Of a stretch of 33,681 nt of DNA, positions 22,701-33,612 are shown piece after piece (position 1 is the first letter of the stretch; each line of letters opens with the position of its first letter). A program made the translations under genes and the position numbers. Under the pieces are notes generated by a model that made no database searches, had not been told where the DNA came from, and worked only from the letters and a program-made list of their open reading frames with translations. This DNA is from a virus, in IMG/VR virus record IMGVR_UViG_3300044846_002188, positions 1 to 33,681 of that record; one strand, given 5' to 3'.

Positions 22701-23086
22701 GCGAACAACTGGCACTGTTCACAGCAGCGCGCAACACGGATCCGGAAACATCGCAAGTGAATCGTGACGCGTTCATAAAGAAAACAAGTCAGCGTGACAT
22801 GATCCTCATGACATACAAGCGACATTATGAAAGCAAGTTGCTTTGCTTTTCTGATGGCACAGATGGCGCGCAAGGTTTGACCGACGAAGAAGCCGGTAAG
22901 GGAACATCTTGGTTGAACGCCAACATGTATGAGTATCGGATCTGTTATTGGAAACGTTGTTCTGAATTGCGCAAGCTCGGTTTCATTGAACCGACAGGTG
23001 AAACACGTTTGAGTTCTGCCGGTCAGCCACAACAGGTTTGTAAGATCACTGTTGAAGGCAGACGCTATGTTTCAACTCAACTATAA
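22697..23086 (+). CDS. Winged-helix-like DNA-binding protein
   Basis: A 129-residue protein. It begins with the common phage signature ARNTDPETSQVNRDAF, then QRDMILMTYKRH, GLTDEEAG, and YWKRCSELRKLGFIEPTGET, a winged helix in which the last segment is the wing following the recognition helix. Such proteins are frequent in actinophage and other phage early regions. It probably binds DNA, as regulator or replication accessory; the target is unknown. The next gene begins 20 bases before its stop. Confidence 0.75.
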   Translation: MSEQLALFTAARNTDPETSQVNRDAFIKKTSQRDMILMTYKRHYESKLLCFSDGTDGAQGLTDEEAGKGTSWLNANMYEYRICYWKRCSELRKLGFIEPTGETRLSSAGQPQQVCKITVEGRRYVSTQL

Positions 23087-23342
23087 AGAGTTTGTCTATG
23101 AGGCTTGGCGTGATCGCGCGGTTTGTGTCGGCATAGATAGCAGAGTGTTCTTTCCGGAAATGATCTCGTCAGATAAAGTTTGGATACGCGCGCGTGAATA
23201 TTGTGACTCGTGTCCGGTGAGAAATGATTGTTTGGAATCCGCATTGCGCTACGAAGATCTTGAAGATAAATGGGGAATGTTCGGTGGGCATACGCCACAC
23301 GAAAGAGCTTCCATACGGCATGAGCGAAGGAAATTCCGGTGA
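23067..23342 (+). CDS. WhiB-family iron-sulfur regulator
   Basis: A 91-residue protein with the WhiB arrangement: AWRDRAVC (C20), an FFPE segment, YCDSCPVRNDC (C46, C49, C55, spaced C-x2-C-x5-C), then DKWGMFGGHTPHER with the G[VIM][WF]GG turn and a basic C-terminal tail (RHERRKFR) for DNA contact. WhiB proteins carry a 4Fe-4S cluster, bind the principal sigma factor and occur essentially only in Actinobacteria and their phages, so this gene is the best host marker. ATG 23067 gives the natural length; the frame upstream lies within the preceding gene. Phage WhiB proteins can interfere with host WhiB function. Confidence 0.93.
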   Translation: MFQLNYKEFVYEAWRDRAVCVGIDSRVFFPEMISSDKVWIRAREYCDSCPVRNDCLESALRYEDLEDKWGMFGGHTPHERASIRHERRKFR

Positions 23343-28373: not shown

Positions 28374-28449
28374 ACTTTTCTATTCGTTATTCGTTTTGTT
28401 GTATGGCATCTTCGTCGCCATCTTGTTAGCGGAACTCATTAAAGGTTGA
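28363..28449 (+). CDS. 28-residue membrane peptide
   Basis: GTG-started micro-protein, MGNKLFYSLFVLLYGIFVAI, then LLAELIKG. It is essentially one transmembrane helix with a short basic end. It fills the gap between two genes and overlaps the previous gene by 11 bases. Support is the clean hydrophobic pattern and context only. Confidence 0.45.
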   Translation: MGNKLFYSLFVLLYGIFVAILLAELIKG

Positions 28450-28451
28450 AA

Positions 28452-29177
28452 TTGCTCACACAAAACAGTGAGTTGAAGCCACATGGGATATTCAACTGGA
28501 CAATTCCGGCTTGGCATACTCGCCTATCTGATGGCACATTCTTCAAGACATGCCCGAACGCCGGTGCTTGTGCGCGTGTGTGTTATGCCAGAAACGGAAC
28601 ATACCTATTCCGCAACGTGGCGCAAGCTCATTTGCGTAACCTTGAAGCGGTATTGAATGATCCGCAAGGCTGGAAGAACGCGATGATCTCGGAGTTGAGC
28701 CACAAACGTTTCCGCGCCACCGGAGATCCGAAGAACATTCCCATTGACACAGATCAATTAGACAATTGGGCAAGAGCATGGATACGAAACGGTGGGAAAG
28801 CGGTACGCATACATGACGCAGGAGACTTTTTCGCGCGTTGGTATTTGGATCTATGGATAGAAATAGCGAACGATGTTCCGGACGTGTTGTTCTATGCCTA
28901 CACGAAAGAAGTGCAGATGTTCCGCGATGTTGAGCAATTCCCTAATAACTTTCGGTTTCTGTTTTCAACCGGTGGCTTACAAGATGACCTGATTGGCGAC
29001 GAACGCCACGCCGACGTATTCCCCAACGATGATGCCATGAACGAAGCCGGATATAGCAGTCAAGAAGCAAATGATCTACTGGCAGTGCTGTTGCCGACGA
29101 ACCGTGTCGGGATCGTGGCTAATAATATTCCCGCATTCAATAAGAAAATGGCAGGACGTAGGTTCTCTGAACTATGA
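28452..29177 (+). CDS. GP88-family protein (cysteine motif)
   Basis: A 241-residue protein of the actinophage GP88-type family: LKPHGIFNWTIPAW, KTCPNAGACARVCYARNGTY, then VRIHDAGDFFARWYLDLW, VLFYAYTKEVQMF and RFLFSTGG. The C-x5-C-x3-C cluster followed by YARNGTY recalls iron-sulfur binding in Gp37/Gp68-like radical-SAM-type phage proteins. TTG 28452 is preferred because AAAGG lies 6 bases upstream; TTG 28446 is an alternative but too close to that site. No enzymatic role is established. It immediately precedes the modification genes and could contribute to them, but this is only contextual. Confidence 0.8.
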   Translation: MLTQNSELKPHGIFNWTIPAWHTRLSDGTFFKTCPNAGACARVCYARNGTYLFRNVAQAHLRNLEAVLNDPQGWKNAMISELSHKRFRATGDPKNIPIDTDQLDNWARAWIRNGGKAVRIHDAGDFFARWYLDLWIEIANDVPDVLFYAYTKEVQMFRDVEQFPNNFRFLFSTGGLQDDLIGDERHADVFPNDDAMNEAGYSSQEANDLLAVLLPTNRVGIVANNIPAFNKKMAGRRFSEL

Positions 29178-29201: not shown

Positions 29202-29813
29202 ATGATTCATGATGAACTCACCCAACTAACCGTCGCAATTGATTCGGTAAAGAATCACCCTCGGAACATTCGTCAAGGTGACGTTGGCGCAATTAGCCAG
29301 TCACTCAAAGAGAACGGTCAATACCGACCAATAGTTGTCCAAAAAAGCACCGGTTATGTTCTTGCTGGAAACCACACGTTGAAAGCAGCCAAAGCTCTTG
29401 GCTGGAAAACAATTGCTGCAACAATGGTTGATTGTGACGATGATCGCGCGTTGCGTATCTTGCTTGCCGACAACAAGACAAATGATCTCGCGTCATACGA
29501 TGAGAACGCACTATCCGAACTGTTGAAGGAACTGGCATCAACAGAACAAGGTTTGTCCGGCACGTTATACACTGGCGATGATCTTGACGACATGCTATTC
29601 AAAGCAGACTTCACACACGGCAACGCTTCCGTAGGTGTTGGTGTGCATGATGTGTCTGATGAATATTACGACAAAGCAATCAGAAGCCTGATCCTTGTGT
29701 ATAAAGAAGAAACACACCACGATCTTGTAAAACGTCTTGATGAGATTGGTGAAAAACTCAAATTGGATAACCATTCAGACGTGGTCCGGCACTTGATTGA
29801 AAAATGGAAATAG
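29202..29813 (+). CDS. ParB/Srx-fold protein of the modification cassette
   Basis: A 203-residue protein. Residues about 10-100 are a ParB N-terminal-like domain: IDSVKNHPRNIRQGDVGAIS, SLKENGQYRPIVVQ, VLAGNHTLKAAKALGWKTIA and ALRILLADNKTND. No partition helix-turn-helix is obvious; the C-terminal about 60 residues are helical (HHDLVKRLDEIGEKLKLDNH). Stand-alone ParB-like proteins of this kind accompany DNA methylases and TET/JBP enzymes in phages, and the fold can bind nucleotides or cleave DNA. AGAAGGAG precedes the ATG. It overlaps the dioxygenase gene by 10 bases, which links the two. Confidence 0.85.
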   Translation: MIHDELTQLTVAIDSVKNHPRNIRQGDVGAISQSLKENGQYRPIVVQKSTGYVLAGNHTLKAAKALGWKTIAATMVDCDDDRALRILLADNKTNDLASYDENALSELLKELASTEQGLSGTLYTGDDLDDMLFKADFTHGNASVGVGVHDVSDEYYDKAIRSLILVYKEETHHDLVKRLDEIGEKLKLDNHSDVVRHLIEKWK

Positions 29814-30700
29814 TTGAACGCCAACTAATTGAATGGCAACCTGAAAAGGATCGCGCAAAACGCTTTGCTGATCTCTTGAATGGTCATGGCAATGACTTTG
29901 CTATACGCGATGCGGAAACCGGTGTTATCAGCGTCGTTCAAAAACAAATTGACTTGGCGAATGTGATTGACCTGCCAAAGTTGTTGCGCCATCTCCGGCT
30001 CAAAGGTTTCTATACGCAAGCCAAAGAAGGCTCAATGCAGAGAGCATCGGGAATAAAAGCGAAGGAACAATGGTTTGGATACATACCGCCAGACACTTTG
30101 AAGCGTCGGTATGCCATCAACCGGTCAGGGCTATATAAAAAGAACGCCGAACTAGGTTTCACCCTTGAAGGACTAACTCCGGTGATGTGGGACGCGTTGC
30201 GCGAGATCGCGCCGGAACAGACACAAGCTCATGAAGAATTGGTTGCGGAGAACATTCACCGTGACTGGTGGCTAGGTGATTGCCCATTCACTTCGGGCAT
30301 TATCAACCATACAAACGTTCTGCCATACCACAAGGACAGTGGCAATCTCCAAGGCAGTTGGTCAATGATGTTGGCATTGCGCAAAGGTGATGAAGGTGGC
30401 GCGCTACACATTCCTGAATACAACGAAACACTTGCTATCCCTGATTGCTCGGTTACTTTCTTCAACGGACAGAAATACTGGCACGGTGTTACACCAATAT
30501 CGTTGCGTGATCGTGACGCGTATCGTTTCACAATGGTTTGGTATGTCAAAGACCGCATCAAATACTGTTTGTCACGTGAAGAAGAACTACATCGTGCAGC
30601 ATCAACCGCCACAAAAGGCAACAAAAGCGTAACCGCGAAACGAAAAAGCGTTGCGGAAGCAAAAAGGAATCAAGATGGAACAGGGAAGCCTGTGGAATGA
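29804..30700 (+). CDS. TET/JBP-type 2-oxoglutarate Fe(II) dioxygenase
   Basis: A 298-residue enzyme predicted to oxidise the methyl group of a base (thymine or 5-methylcytosine) in DNA to hydroxymethyl. The double-stranded beta-helix core is visible: NHTNVLPYHKDSGN with iron ligands H176 and D178, SWSMMLALRKGDEGGALHIP, a third ligand H227 in YWHGVTPI, and the 2-oxoglutarate-binding arginine R241 in AYRFTMVWY. KDRIKYCLSREEEL after the core is typical of the phage TET/JBP group. The N-terminal about 110 residues may bind DNA. A basic, low-complexity tail ends the protein. No cytosine methyltransferase is in the window, which favours thymine as substrate. Confidence 0.85.
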   Translation: MEIVERQLIEWQPEKDRAKRFADLLNGHGNDFAIRDAETGVISVVQKQIDLANVIDLPKLLRHLRLKGFYTQAKEGSMQRASGIKAKEQWFGYIPPDTLKRRYAINRSGLYKKNAELGFTLEGLTPVMWDALREIAPEQTQAHEELVAENIHRDWWLGDCPFTSGIINHTNVLPYHKDSGNLQGSWSMMLALRKGDEGGALHIPEYNETLAIPDCSVTFFNGQKYWHGVTPISLRDRDAYRFTMVWYVKDRIKYCLSREEELHRAASTATKGNKSVTAKRKSVAEAKRNQDGTGKPVE

Positions 30701-31553
30701 TTATGTTTCATTTCATACAGAACAAATAAAGTCTTGGGACATTGATCCGGTATATCCAGTTCTCAAATACATAAACAAAGACGTTGATAAAGAATCTGCC
30801 ATTTGGCTGACATTTCTACACGTCGCGTACTATCACATTGGATCCGCGTTGGCGGTGTGGCACGAATATCCGTATCCTGCCATTCCAAGCGATGACATGT
30901 TGAAACTTCCTTGCGGAACAGAACGACGCGCGCACCGCGATCCCGCCAAATTGAAGAAACATCTAACAGATCTCATAACGCGCGAACCATTATCTGAATT
31001 CGTCAATAGAGCCATCACAAACGATCCGCGCCGGTCTTGGGCACGTATGGAACTGATGCTTCAAACGATCTGGGGCAACGGACGTTGGGCAACGTTCAAG
31101 ACTTCCGAAATGTTGATGAAGGTAAATGATCTTGCGCTTGAAGCAACAGATATGGGACACAAGAACGGATCCGGCTCAAAGCACGGTTTGAAGCTCTTGT
31201 ACCCTAATGCGCCAATGGGTAACTCAAAGCGCGACATTGCCATTCTTGACAAGATCTCTGATGAATTGGTTGAACGGCTAATAGATGCTGGCGCACCGGC
31301 AACTTTGGAAACGGCAGAAACATCTTTGTGTGACTTCCATTCAATGCTTGAAGGCAGGTATTACGTCGGATACGACATTGACGCCATGTTGAAACAATTG
31401 CGTGGTGTACCATCACCACTAACAGAAAAAGCATTTGAAGCAAGGTGCGCCACCATACCGGTGCAGTATCTTGGAGAGATCAACGGTTGGGAGACGACAG
31501 ACGATGAACGAAAACGCGCATACAAACAACGACGCGCAGTCCTTTACCGTTAG
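30675..31553 (+). CDS. Amino acid:DNA transferase (aGPT-PPlase-like)
   Basis: A 292-residue helical protein whose pattern fits the alpha-glutamyl/putrescinyl-thymine pyrophosphorylase-like (amino acid:DNA transferase) family: AIWLTFLHVAYYHIGSALAV, NDPRRSWARMELML (about 116-129), GNGRWATFKTSEML (134-147), and ETSLCDFHSM followed by GRYYVGYDIDAML (about 215-239). These enzymes have a DNA-glycosylase-like fold and replace an activated phosphate on 5-hydroxymethyluracil in DNA by an amino acid or amine. AAAAGGAA sits 7 bases upstream of ATG 30675, inside the dioxygenase gene. Assignment is by motif memory and by the company of dioxygenase, kinase, flavoprotein and acetyltransferase. Confidence 0.72.
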   Translation: MEQGSLWNDYVSFHTEQIKSWDIDPVYPVLKYINKDVDKESAIWLTFLHVAYYHIGSALAVWHEYPYPAIPSDDMLKLPCGTERRAHRDPAKLKKHLTDLITREPLSEFVNRAITNDPRRSWARMELMLQTIWGNGRWATFKTSEMLMKVNDLALEATDMGHKNGSGSKHGLKLLYPNAPMGNSKRDIAILDKISDELVERLIDAGAPATLETAETSLCDFHSMLEGRYYVGYDIDAMLKQLRGVPSPLTEKAFEARCATIPVQYLGEINGWETTDDERKRAYKQRRAVLYR

Positions 31554-31968
31554 GACAGCCACAATTACAGATCGCGCCACTATTGAACTGATCGTTAGGC
31601 AATGCGGGAAACATGTTCGTGATTACTTCGGCATACGCAACTTGATTGACTTTTACCGCAAAGGCGAAGTGTTCATCGTTGAAGATCCTTCACCAATAGC
31701 ATTTGCTGTCGCCAAACCGTTGATACGTGAACAAGTAATCTCGCTATATGAGATAGGCGTTGTTCCACATAAACGCGGTCAGGGCATCGCAACCAAGCTC
31801 ATGTATCACATTGATACCTTGCACCCAGATCGCACTTGGCGGTTGGTTGTGAATGATGACAACGCACCGGCACGTATCGCATACGAACGCTTAGGGCTGA
31901 AAGCATACGCATACGACAAAACCAAAGGTGGCAGACCAATAGTCCGCATGGAAGGAAAACTACGTTGA
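31504..31968 (+). CDS. GNAT acetyltransferase of the modification cassette
   Basis: A 154-residue GNAT-fold protein. The acetyl-CoA loop is GVVPHKRGQGIATKLM (about 85-100, RGQGIA), followed by the conserved WRLVVNDDNAPARIAYERLG segment. The N-terminus is polar and asparagine-rich; ATG 31504 is chosen because the frame upstream belongs to the transferase gene. Together with the neighbouring enzymes a role in acetylating an amine placed on the modified base is likely, as acetyltransferases are known in phage thymidine hypermodification sets. Protein or small-molecule acetylation is an alternative. Confidence 0.85.
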   Translation: MNENAHTNNDAQSFTVRTATITDRATIELIVRQCGKHVRDYFGIRNLIDFYRKGEVFIVEDPSPIAFAVAKPLIREQVISLYEIGVVPHKRGQGIATKLMYHIDTLHPDRTWRLVVNDDNAPARIAYERLGLKAYAYDKTKGGRPIVRMEGKLR

Positions 31969-32777
31969 GGCAAATGATTATCGTCGGATCCGGCGTGGCT
32001 GGCTCATGCGCGCAAAGGATCGCGTCATACTATGGCTGGCAAACAACAGTGATAGATGATCTCCCGACAACGGCTGCTTCACGTGCAGCATTGGCAACGA
32101 TCCGCCCACAATGGCTTGGAGAGAACGGCAGGGAATGGGCGAAAGCATCGTGGCGTTGGTATGAACGTTGGGGTGTGAACATCACCCAACATGGCTTGGT
32201 ATCATCATGGAAGAAACCAGAACCAACACTTCAAAAGGATTGGTGGCTGGTTGAGCCAATCGGCGTACTCGTGATGCCAGATGTTATGGAACGCGTCATA
32301 GATGTGACCGGCACAACCGTCACGACAACCGAACAAACGTTCGTAGGCGACGCGGTACTTGTGGCTGTGGGGGCACATGATCCCAAGCTCTATGGCGACT
32401 TCAAACCAATGACCGGCTGCACGCTCTACAACAATCAAATAGAAATGTCCGGCGCGCCATTGCGTGTGCATCATCTAAGACCATTCCACGCGCTCACAGT
32501 GGCTCAACAAGGAGATACCGTCGTGTTGGGATCATCTATCCACCGCGAGATGGCAAAAGCCGAAGAAGAAGTGTGGCGTATGCTCACCGTCGCGGAAGAC
32601 ATTGGCATTGTGCCCAAGTCACACCAATGGATCATGCGCGGAAACACCAGAGCCACATCACCCAAAGCAACATTGCCCGAAGCAGGCAACCCTTCAACCG
32701 TGATTGGATCGTTGGGACGTTCCGGCTATGGCATCACACCACATGTCATTGAGCAATGGATCGTGAGCCTGACATGA
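31965..32777 (+). CDS. FAD-dependent oxidoreductase (amino-acid oxidase type)
   Basis: A 270-residue flavoprotein. The Rossmann dinucleotide motif is IIVGSGVAGS (G8-x-G10-x2-G13), with D31 closing the second strand in TTVIDD; VLVAVGAH (about 131-138) is the usual second FAD-contacting strand, and the C-terminal VIGSLGRSGYGITPHVIEQW resembles the final FAD motif of D-amino-acid/glycine oxidases. It is short for that family (usually over 330). TTG 31965 has AAGGAAAA at the right distance, better than ATG 31974. In known phage pathways a flavin-dependent lyase trims the amino acid attached to the base; this enzyme is the obvious candidate for that step. Confidence 0.82.
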   Translation: MRQMIIVGSGVAGSCAQRIASYYGWQTTVIDDLPTTAASRAALATIRPQWLGENGREWAKASWRWYERWGVNITQHGLVSSWKKPEPTLQKDWWLVEPIGVLVMPDVMERVIDVTGTTVTTTEQTFVGDAVLVAVGAHDPKLYGDFKPMTGCTLYNNQIEMSGAPLRVHHLRPFHALTVAQQGDTVVLGSSIHREMAKAEEEVWRMLTVAEDIGIVPKSHQWIMRGNTRATSPKATLPEAGNPSTVIGSLGRSGYGITPHVIEQWIVSLT

Positions 32778-33334
32778 TCGTTGTGTATCTCATTGGCGTG
32801 GCTGGCGTTGGTAAATCAACAACTGTAAAGGAATTGACTAACGAATGGTCATTGCGTATGGAAGCACCCAAACCATTCGCGCACCGACACTACGATACGC
32901 CACATGGCAGAGGAATCGTACTTGGCAAAGATGTTGAACCATTCGGCGGAACAGACACGCTCTCATGGACAGCCATCAACCACGTCGGTGACTTCTTCAA
33001 CGCTTGCGCACAGCGCAACGTACAACTAATCATCGGTGAAGGAGATCGCTTCGCTAATGGTAGGTTCTTTGACGAAGCATCAGCACACGGAACGTTGTTG
33101 TTGTTCAGTCTTGAAGCACCTGACGATGTGACCGAGGATCGCAGACAGGTACGTGCCACTACCTTCAACACTCCATTGCAGAACGCTACTTGGATTGCAG
33201 GCAGAAAAACAAAAACAACTACCCTTGCCGAGAGGTATAGAGCATTCCCCATAGATGCGACACAACCAACATCATCTGTTATTCAAACAATCAATAAAAG
33301 AATCAACCAATGCCTATTCAAAGACCATGCTTGA
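32774..33334 (+). CDS. P-loop kinase (5-hydroxymethyluracil DNA kinase-like)
   Basis: A 186-residue P-loop kinase. Walker A is GVAGVGKST (8-16), FGGTDTLSWTAI (about 57-68) is a distinctive segment of actinophage base-modification kinases, LIIGEGDRFANGRFF (86-99) carries acidic residues near the active site, and AGRKTK (142-147) supplies a basic lid. In hypermodification pathways such a kinase phosphorylates 5-hydroxymethyluracil in DNA so that the phosphate can be displaced. ATG 32774 overlaps the flavoprotein stop. Some deoxynucleotide kinases are similar, so the DNA-level role depends on context. Confidence 0.8.
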   Translation: MIVVYLIGVAGVGKSTTVKELTNEWSLRMEAPKPFAHRHYDTPHGRGIVLGKDVEPFGGTDTLSWTAINHVGDFFNACAQRNVQLIIGEGDRFANGRFFDEASAHGTLLLFSLEAPDDVTEDRRQVRATTFNTPLQNATWIAGRKTKTTTLAERYRAFPIDATQPTSSVIQTINKRINQCLFKDHA

Positions 33335-33612
33335 ACTGCAAGCAACTGACAACCAGAACAACCAGATGCGAGACATGCCAACGCCTATGGAACACCGCAC
33401 ACCCGAAACCAATTCGCAAGCACTACCAAGGCACATACCGCAAACGCGCCAAGCTCATACGCGACAACGCCACCCACTGCTGGCTATGCGGGAAAGCAGC
33501 CATTCACAACGATCCTTGGACAGCAGATCATGTGATAGCAGGAGATCCGGATTCACCCTTGGCACCGGCACACAGATCATGCAACAGCAGACGCGGAAAC
33601 ACACCTGTATGA
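33310..33612 (+). CDS. HNH endonuclease
   Basis: A 100-residue HNH nuclease. An N-terminal zinc ribbon (CLNC at 7-10, CETC at 20-23) is followed by a second pair C57-x2-C60, the catalytic TADHVIAG (D73, H74), PAHRSCN (H88, C91, N92) and SRRG. Such HNH proteins lie directly upstream of the terminase genes in many phages and take part in DNA packaging. It overlaps the kinase by 25 bases. If the contig ends join, it would sit about 130 bases before the small terminase gene. Confidence 0.9.
   Translation: MPIQRPCLNCKQLTTRTTRCETCQRLWNTAHPKPIRKHYQGTYRKRAKLIRDNATHCWLCGKAAIHNDPWTADHVIAGDPDSPLAPAHRSCNSRRGNTPV

Follow-up and report, generated by a model that had tools for sequence, protein, structure and literature searches.

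Genome context of the locus

The window analyzed here is the whole of the 33,681-base virus record IMGVR_UViG_3300044846_002188, which is classed in IMG/VR as 'linear'. Pfam scans place the terminase, portal, protease and tape measure genes in that order from its left end; the structural genes are followed by those for YqaJ, WhiB, a DnaD-like protein and SSB, and the right end is taken up by a gene cassette and an HNH gene (Table 1). The WhiB-family regulator (23052 to 23342; PF02467, E 7e-16) points to an actinobacterial host. The order GP88-ParB-TET at the upstream edge of the cassette is also found in L005, L027/G005, L201 and L251.

Two metagenome contigs (L185 and L186) start at exactly the first base of the window; in the relative L002 a kinase-HNH pair directly precedes the terminase gene, as the last genes of the window would; and the relative G005 (35.2 kb), a permuted contig opened inside a glycosyltransferase gene whose 3' end lies at the contig start and whose 5' part lies at the contig end, has the same circle of genes. 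All this makes it very probable that the window represents an essentially complete genome of actinophage type whose ends are fixed, so that the absence of a gene from it carries meaning.

Table 1. Genes and predicted active-site residues at the right end of the window.
Feature	Position	Strand	Basis or remark
GP88-family protein, function unknown	28446..29177	+	Pfam PF17338 E 4.7e-43; upstream neighbor kept in the phage lineage
ParB_N-like protein	29202..29813	+	PF02195 E 3.8e-8; stop overlaps TET/JBP start at 29804
TET/JBP-type Fe(II)/2-oxoglutarate dioxygenase, proposed thymine-DNA hydroxylase	29804..30700	+	PF12851, model fold, intact HxD...H...R
H176-K-D178-S-G-N181, iron ligands and D+3 residue (Asn)	30329..30346	+	Alignment
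H227, third iron ligand	30482..30484	+	Invariant column
R241, predicted 2-oxoglutarate-binding Arg	30524..30526	+	Invariant column
ADDT, amino acid:DNA transferase	30675..31553	+	PF18724 E 3.8e-19, over cut-off; start overlaps TET/JBP end
GNAT acetyltransferase	31498..31968	+	PF00583 E 1.5e-8; cassette GNAT profile picks PaMx11 gp48
FAD enzyme resembling N-alpha-glycinylthymidine FAD-dependent lyase	31965..32777	+	Structure model, PDB matches
P-loop kinase (Ploopntkinase3), proposed 5-hydroxymethyluracil-DNA kinase	32756..33334	+	PF18751 E 1.6e-17
HNH protein	33310..33612	+	Between cassette and terminase; cassette boundary, outside the pathway

The dioxygenase

The 298-residue product of the central gene matches the Pfam family Tet_JBP (PF12851) with an E-value of 1.3e-7 and 31.4 bits, under the curated cut-off of 34.9; we take this low score as divergence, because fold and active site agree with TET/JBP enzymes. 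Searched against the PDB, a profile built from the protein and 20 relatives picks out TET2 and Naegleria Tet, with E-values of roughly 2e-5 to 8e-5. An AlphaFold2 model made from a 33-sequence alignment (pLDDT 85.3, pTM 0.81) displays a double-stranded beta-helix that is closest to the TET enzymes NgTet1 (Z 19.1), TET2 (19.1), CMD1 (18.2) and CcTet (16.6); FTO (14.4) comes next, and it and AlkB rank after the TET enzymes. An alignment of 21 relatives shows no variation at H176, D178, H227 and R241. Of 179 TET sequences, 176 have the HxD...H...R residues and three are truncated. R241 is predicted to be the arginine that binds 2-oxoglutarate in this fold. The residue at D+3, N181, aligns with Asn in TET2 and Asp in NgTet1. 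Since predicted fold and active site concur, the assignment of this protein as a TET/JBP-type dioxygenase can be regarded as firm.

The label 'queuine tRNA-ribosyltransferase' attached to this family in PHROG 6059 was rejected on fold and motif, and NCBIfam offers no name for the TET, ADDT or kinase of the window. Public records of several mycobacteriophages (L008, L010, L022 and L023 among others) give the same label to their TET/JBP gene and call the PF18751 kinase 'terminase small subunit' or 'adenylate kinase'.

The solved structures nearest to the dioxygenase are of the TET type; JBP is not among the PDB matches, which are therefore uninformative on JBP versus TET kinship. According to their PDB titles the nearest relatives were solved with duplex DNA, which makes DNA a likelier substrate than a free nucleotide. 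Were the enzyme to act instead on free dTMP or dTTP, 5-hydroxymethyl-dUTP would be made before polymerization and inserted by the host polymerase, a scheme helped by the fact that no phage-encoded, discriminating polymerase is in evidence. We consider this very improbable in view of the DNA-bound structures and the AlkB and FTO folds that come next, the coupling of a ParB-like gene to the dioxygenase, and the absence of ribonucleotide reductase and dCMP deaminase, nucleotide-pool genes seen in PaMx11, from the 40 window proteins scanned.

The downstream cassette

The five genes from TET/JBP to kinase are all open and overlap one another. The ADDT is homologous to that of phage M6 (BLASTP E 7e-12) and to a solved ADDT-domain protein (PDB 25qc; E 7e-5). 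A model of the FAD enzyme (pLDDT 89.0) lies closest to 8z79, the N-alpha-glycinylthymidine FAD-dependent lyase gp47 of phage PaMx11 (Z 24.3, rmsd 2.9 over 256 residues), with CmiS2 at Z 23.6, within one Z unit of 8z79, and glycine oxidases at up to 22.1 as runners-up; its sequence profile likewise ranks the lyase (8z2o/8z79) first in the PDB, with E 1.3e-7, and NCBIfam gives a weak ThiO match alone. This top match is named for a thymidine substrate.

In PaMx11 the corresponding stretch holds ADDT (gp46), lyase (gp47), acetyltransferase (gp48), kinase (gp49), the helical kinase part (gp50) and a thymidylate-synthase (TS) homolog (gp51), with the DNA polymerase gp55 four genes beyond. Profiles made from the ADDT, FAD, GNAT and kinase genes linked to TET pick gp46, gp47, gp48 and gp49 respectively, in a database of the open reading frames of one PaMx11 stretch whose small size makes rank more telling than E-value. 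By homology, the window carries the tailoring genes of PaMx11 with TET/JBP standing in for the TS homolog, and it is the ADDT and the glycinylthymidine-lyase homolog that speak most strongly against a cytosine base. The chemistry of the PaMx11/M6 pathway was reportedly described by Lee in 2018 and 2022 and is also reflected in PDB titles.

The kinase is less telling. It belongs to PF18751, a different Pfam family from PF18748, which contains the 5-hmdU DNA kinase of M6 and also the PaMx11 kinase (there below cut-off); in both phages a separate helical protein of PF18723 accompanies it, a PF18748-PF18723 pair for which the window has the PF18751 kinase instead. Kinase-like genes also lie near TETs linked to C5-methyltransferases (20 of 55 loci, see below). 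For these two reasons we rejected the kinase family as proof of a uracil base.

Relatives L002 to L004 keep the cassette in the same order with a TET about 74% identical to that of the window. This conservation, the five open and overlapping genes and the fact that 176 of 179 TETs retain their catalytic residues suggest that selection has kept the cassette. We therefore see little merit in the idea that it is decaying or borrowed, leaving phage DNA without bulk modification and serving some other end such as host DNA or RNA or regulation, even though the contents of the ParB-linked slot vary strongly between close relatives.

Three other loci are of note. In L005 (4163 to 6727; TET 46% identical), the ADDT, GNAT, FAD and kinase genes give way to those for a MobA-like NTP transferase, an APH-like phosphotransferase and a protein that resembles glycosyltransferases but matches no Pfam family, a set that suggests a sugar decoration. 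Gene 3 of Mycobacterium phage Prince (L014, 1852 to 2826), annotated as 'DNA glycosylase', matches ADDT (PF18724, E 1.4e-8). In Mycobacterium phage LilMcDreamy (L010, 2656 to 3759), gp4, a 367-residue protein resembling aspartyl/asparaginyl beta-hydroxylases (PF05118, E 1.5e-10), lies between ADDT and kinase and is possibly an extra tailoring oxygenase.

Candidate sources of the hydroxymethyl base

Six-frame searches of the whole window gave no match to a TS homolog (PF00303), a C5-methyltransferase (PF00145) or PolA (PF00476), and Pfam scans of 40 window proteins found no polymerase of any family and no DNA methyltransferase. The original prediction, that the TET/JBP enzyme is the only recognizable source of a hydroxymethyl base and that no cytosine methyltransferase is present, is thus borne out, and its proviso that a hydroxymethylase might turn up if the window were a partial genome is answered by a window that is very probably whole and still without PF00303.

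From the TET/JBP phage records fetched, 50 were picked by length and diversity, 16 named phage genomes among them. None of the 50 has a match to PF00303, which is found in all three TS-type hypermodifying phages searched (M6, ViI and phiW-14) and in PaMx11 gp51. The TET/JBP search gave no match in M6, ViI and phiW-14 (nor in control genomes), and none was detected in PaMx11.

The argument from the missing polymerase fared differently. It had been offered as support for oxidation at the DNA level, and we rejected it as evidence because PolA is encoded in 11 of 36 TET/JBP records, of which five (W02, W03, W05, W09 and G010) also have ADDT and kinase; ViI and phiW-14 are likewise without a PF00476 match, which makes this a weak marker. 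Direct oxidation of thymine in DNA nevertheless stands as the most likely route, with a sole candidate source, no TS homolog or C5-methyltransferase, and a cassette of thymidine type.

Gene neighborhoods of TET/JBP homologs

Among the 50 records, ADDT is found in 16, PF18751 in 30 (28 over cut-off) and PF00145 in 11. ADDT and PF00145 never occur together; kinase and PF00145 do so in two records, G015, where the methyltransferase has two internal stops, and W13, where the kinase is sub-threshold.

The D+3 residue of 145 non-duplicate loci is Asn in 88 and Asp in 55, two fragments being unscored. In 81 of the 88 Asn-type loci a ParB-like gene is found no more than 700 nt from TET; ADDT is near in 40, a TET-associated glycosyltransferase-like gene in 30, and both in none. 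A C5-methyltransferase is adjacent in none of these 88 and lies elsewhere in the stretch, 2.7 to 6.8 kb off, in five; in the L093 record it is further off than the surveyed stretch. The Asp-type loci have an adjacent C5-methyltransferase in 48 of 55, ADDT in none and ParB in one. Since the two types were gathered with two kinds of query and form separate clades in a tree of 68 sequences (built by a quick method, with long-branch warnings), the contrast should be read as that of two lineages, not of many independent events. D+3 was rejected as a test of substrate, as it tracks a single deep split of the tree and TET2, a 5mC enzyme, has Asn. It does separate the two gene contexts, and a possible link to substrate is a lead. 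Within the Asn lineage the tree requires at least 22 changes of cassette type, in keeping with exchangeable decorations that share a single conserved hydroxylation step. L002, L005 and L027 fall together with the window (SH-aLRT 99).

Many marine TETs linked to C5-methyltransferases (L109-L176 and L019) also have a P-loop kinase-like gene, mostly 1.3 to 1.7 kb downstream; such a gene lies within 3 kb of TET in 20 of the 55 Asp-type loci and might phosphorylate 5hmC. Contigs from Corynebacterium, an Actinomycetota MAG and Brevibacterium (L264, L265 and L266) carry ParB-TET-ADDT-kinase loci, presumably in prophages, with a C5-methyltransferase in none of the three stretches. The TET of the window lineage, used as query against genome contigs, gave no match.

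These neighborhoods bear on whether the enzyme could be a TET-type 5mC oxidase, with a host C5-methyltransferase supplying 5mC and the cassette decorating 5-hydroxymethylcytosine. The closest solved structures are 5mC oxidases, TET2 shares the Asn at D+3, and kinase-like genes stand beside C5-methyltransferase-linked TETs; moreover, L027, whose TET is 44% identical to that of the window, has a C5-methyltransferase about 6.8 kb away in its genome. We nonetheless judge this unlikely: the window has no C5-methyltransferase, the gene is adjacent to Asp-type and not to Asn-type TETs, the ADDT and FAD enzyme are homologous to thymidine-pathway enzymes, and methylation of host motifs would probably reach few sites. 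Thymine remains the favored base, with several points to be set against it: besides L027, the ADDT locus L091 has a C5-methyltransferase 3.6 kb away, the window kinase falls outside the characterized 5-hmdU DNA kinase family, the D+3 Asn is shared with a 5mC-active enzyme, and the PF12851 score lies below cut-off.

The ParB-like neighbor

In the phage lineage of the window, the interval from ParB to HNH (29202 to 33612 in the window; also L193, L196, L200, L201, L220, L229 and L251) is a site at which DNA-modification genes are swapped. It holds TET with the amino-acid cassette, TET with a glycosyltransferase, fusions of ParB with an N6/N4 methyltransferase (L200 and L220) or a C5-methyltransferase (L229). 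Because the slot beside it holds such varied modification genes, the ParB-like protein gives the impression of being a partner to DNA modification in general. Its constancy is also the sole hint of the sequence selectivity that had been suggested for the enzyme, and is an association, not a mechanism.

A proposed model for thymine hypermodification

Gene content, catalytic residues, predicted fold, cassette homology and the lack of a TS homolog in the TET/JBP phages searched were observed, and favor a model in which base oxidation in DNA takes the place of the nucleotide-level step. We consider it likely that TET/JBP hydroxylates thymine in phage DNA after replication, and that the cassette then decorates the resulting 5-hydroxymethyluracil. 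Thymine as the substrate, its presence in DNA and not in a nucleotide, the order of the steps and the final product are what we infer here. The first step is proposed because the alternatives are missing and the downstream enzymes are of thymidine type, and the later ones because of homology to the PaMx11/M6 pathway.

In this model the dioxygenase would hydroxylate the 5-methyl group of thymine in replicated DNA, and the kinase would phosphorylate the hydroxymethyl group of the 5-hydroxymethyluracil formed. ADDT would swap the phosphate for an amino acid that is probably glycine, whereupon the FAD enzyme would cleave the glycinyl group to leave 5-aminomethyluracil, which GNAT would acetylate. 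The whole would be the PaMx11/M6 thymidine pathway in a form where base oxidation in DNA takes over from the nucleotide-level hydroxymethylase, the TS homolog.

More tentatively, and with somewhat less than even confidence, we suggest that a large group of phages, mainly actinobacterial, has a hydroxylase devoted to thymine in DNA, the prokaryotic equivalent of JBP, which a ParB-like partner directs to chosen sites. One conserved ParB-TET core would then feed interchangeable amino-acid or sugar cassettes, and phages that rely on ordinary dNTPs, and even on the host polymerase, could still hypermodify thymine.

Comparison with known systems

The best-studied hypermodifying viruses make the modified nucleotide before polymerization, and animal TET proteins act on methylated cytosine. 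TET/JBP systems for thymidine hypermodification were reportedly predicted by Iyer in 2013. PaMx11 shares with the window homologs of ADDT, FAD glycinylthymidine lyase, GNAT and P-loop kinase, and M6 shares ADDT; unlike the window, both phages carry a PF00303 TS homolog and a DNA polymerase gene.

Rhodococcus phage Tonitrus and Gordonia phage Wooper resemble the window in having a ParB-like gene, a 'Tet-like J-binding protein', 'aGPT-Pplase2'/ADDT and a kinase in one operon before the terminase. They are known by annotation alone, their TET is 25% identical to that of the window and, unlike in the window, no FAD lyase-like or GNAT gene was detected beside it. The Tonitrus ParB-like, Tet-like J-binding, aGPT-Pplase2 and 5-hmU kinase genes are listed as a thymidine-hypermodification system (PMC11955845), and the GenBank record of Wooper has the same gene labels. 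A TET/JBP gene in a thymidine-hypermodification operon is thus already published as annotation. Beyond that annotation, the window contributes the full PaMx11-type set (ADDT, lyase, GNAT and kinase) behind TET/JBP, in a seemingly complete genome that shows no recognizable polymerase; to this comes the clear-cut division of TET/JBP loci into ParB-TET-(transferase/glycosyltransferase) and C5-methyltransferase-TET.

Phage TETs of the second kind, exemplified by Methylophilales phage Melnitz and reportedly described by Burke in 2021, share the TET/JBP family and its catalytic residues with the window enzyme. They differ in that a C5-methyltransferase gene lies immediately before them, the D+3 residue is Asp, ADDT is missing and they form a clade apart. 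In the passages available, phage TET homologs are typically associated with 2'-deoxycytidines (PMC11404850) and systems of C5-methyltransferase, TET and glycosyltransferase are described (PMC12730594), Burke 2021 being cited in both, and the published phage TET activity is the conversion of 5mC to 5hmC. In the portions of the open-access literature consulted, no report was found of thymine oxidation by a phage TET/JBP.

If the model is true, the window enzyme would make 5-hydroxymethyluracil from thymine within DNA in a virus of prokaryotes, as against the cytosine activity described in those passages, and would account for hypermodified DNA in phages without a modified nucleotide pool or a polymerase of their own. 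It would provide a tool with which 5hmU could be introduced into DNA, and the question is accessible to testing now, as cultured phages of Gordonia (Wooper and LittleMunchkin), Rhodococcus (Tonitrus), Mycobacterium (Reprobate, in which an FAD gene is present too) and Microbacterium carry the same module. It would also suggest a bacterial-virus root for the synthesis of base J: in kinetoplastids the TET/JBP-family enzymes JBP1 and JBP2 convert thymine in DNA to 5-hydroxymethyluracil (PMC6449724), which is the same reaction as that proposed for the window enzyme. Kinetoplastids glucosylate the product to base J, whereas the window cassette would add an amino acid.
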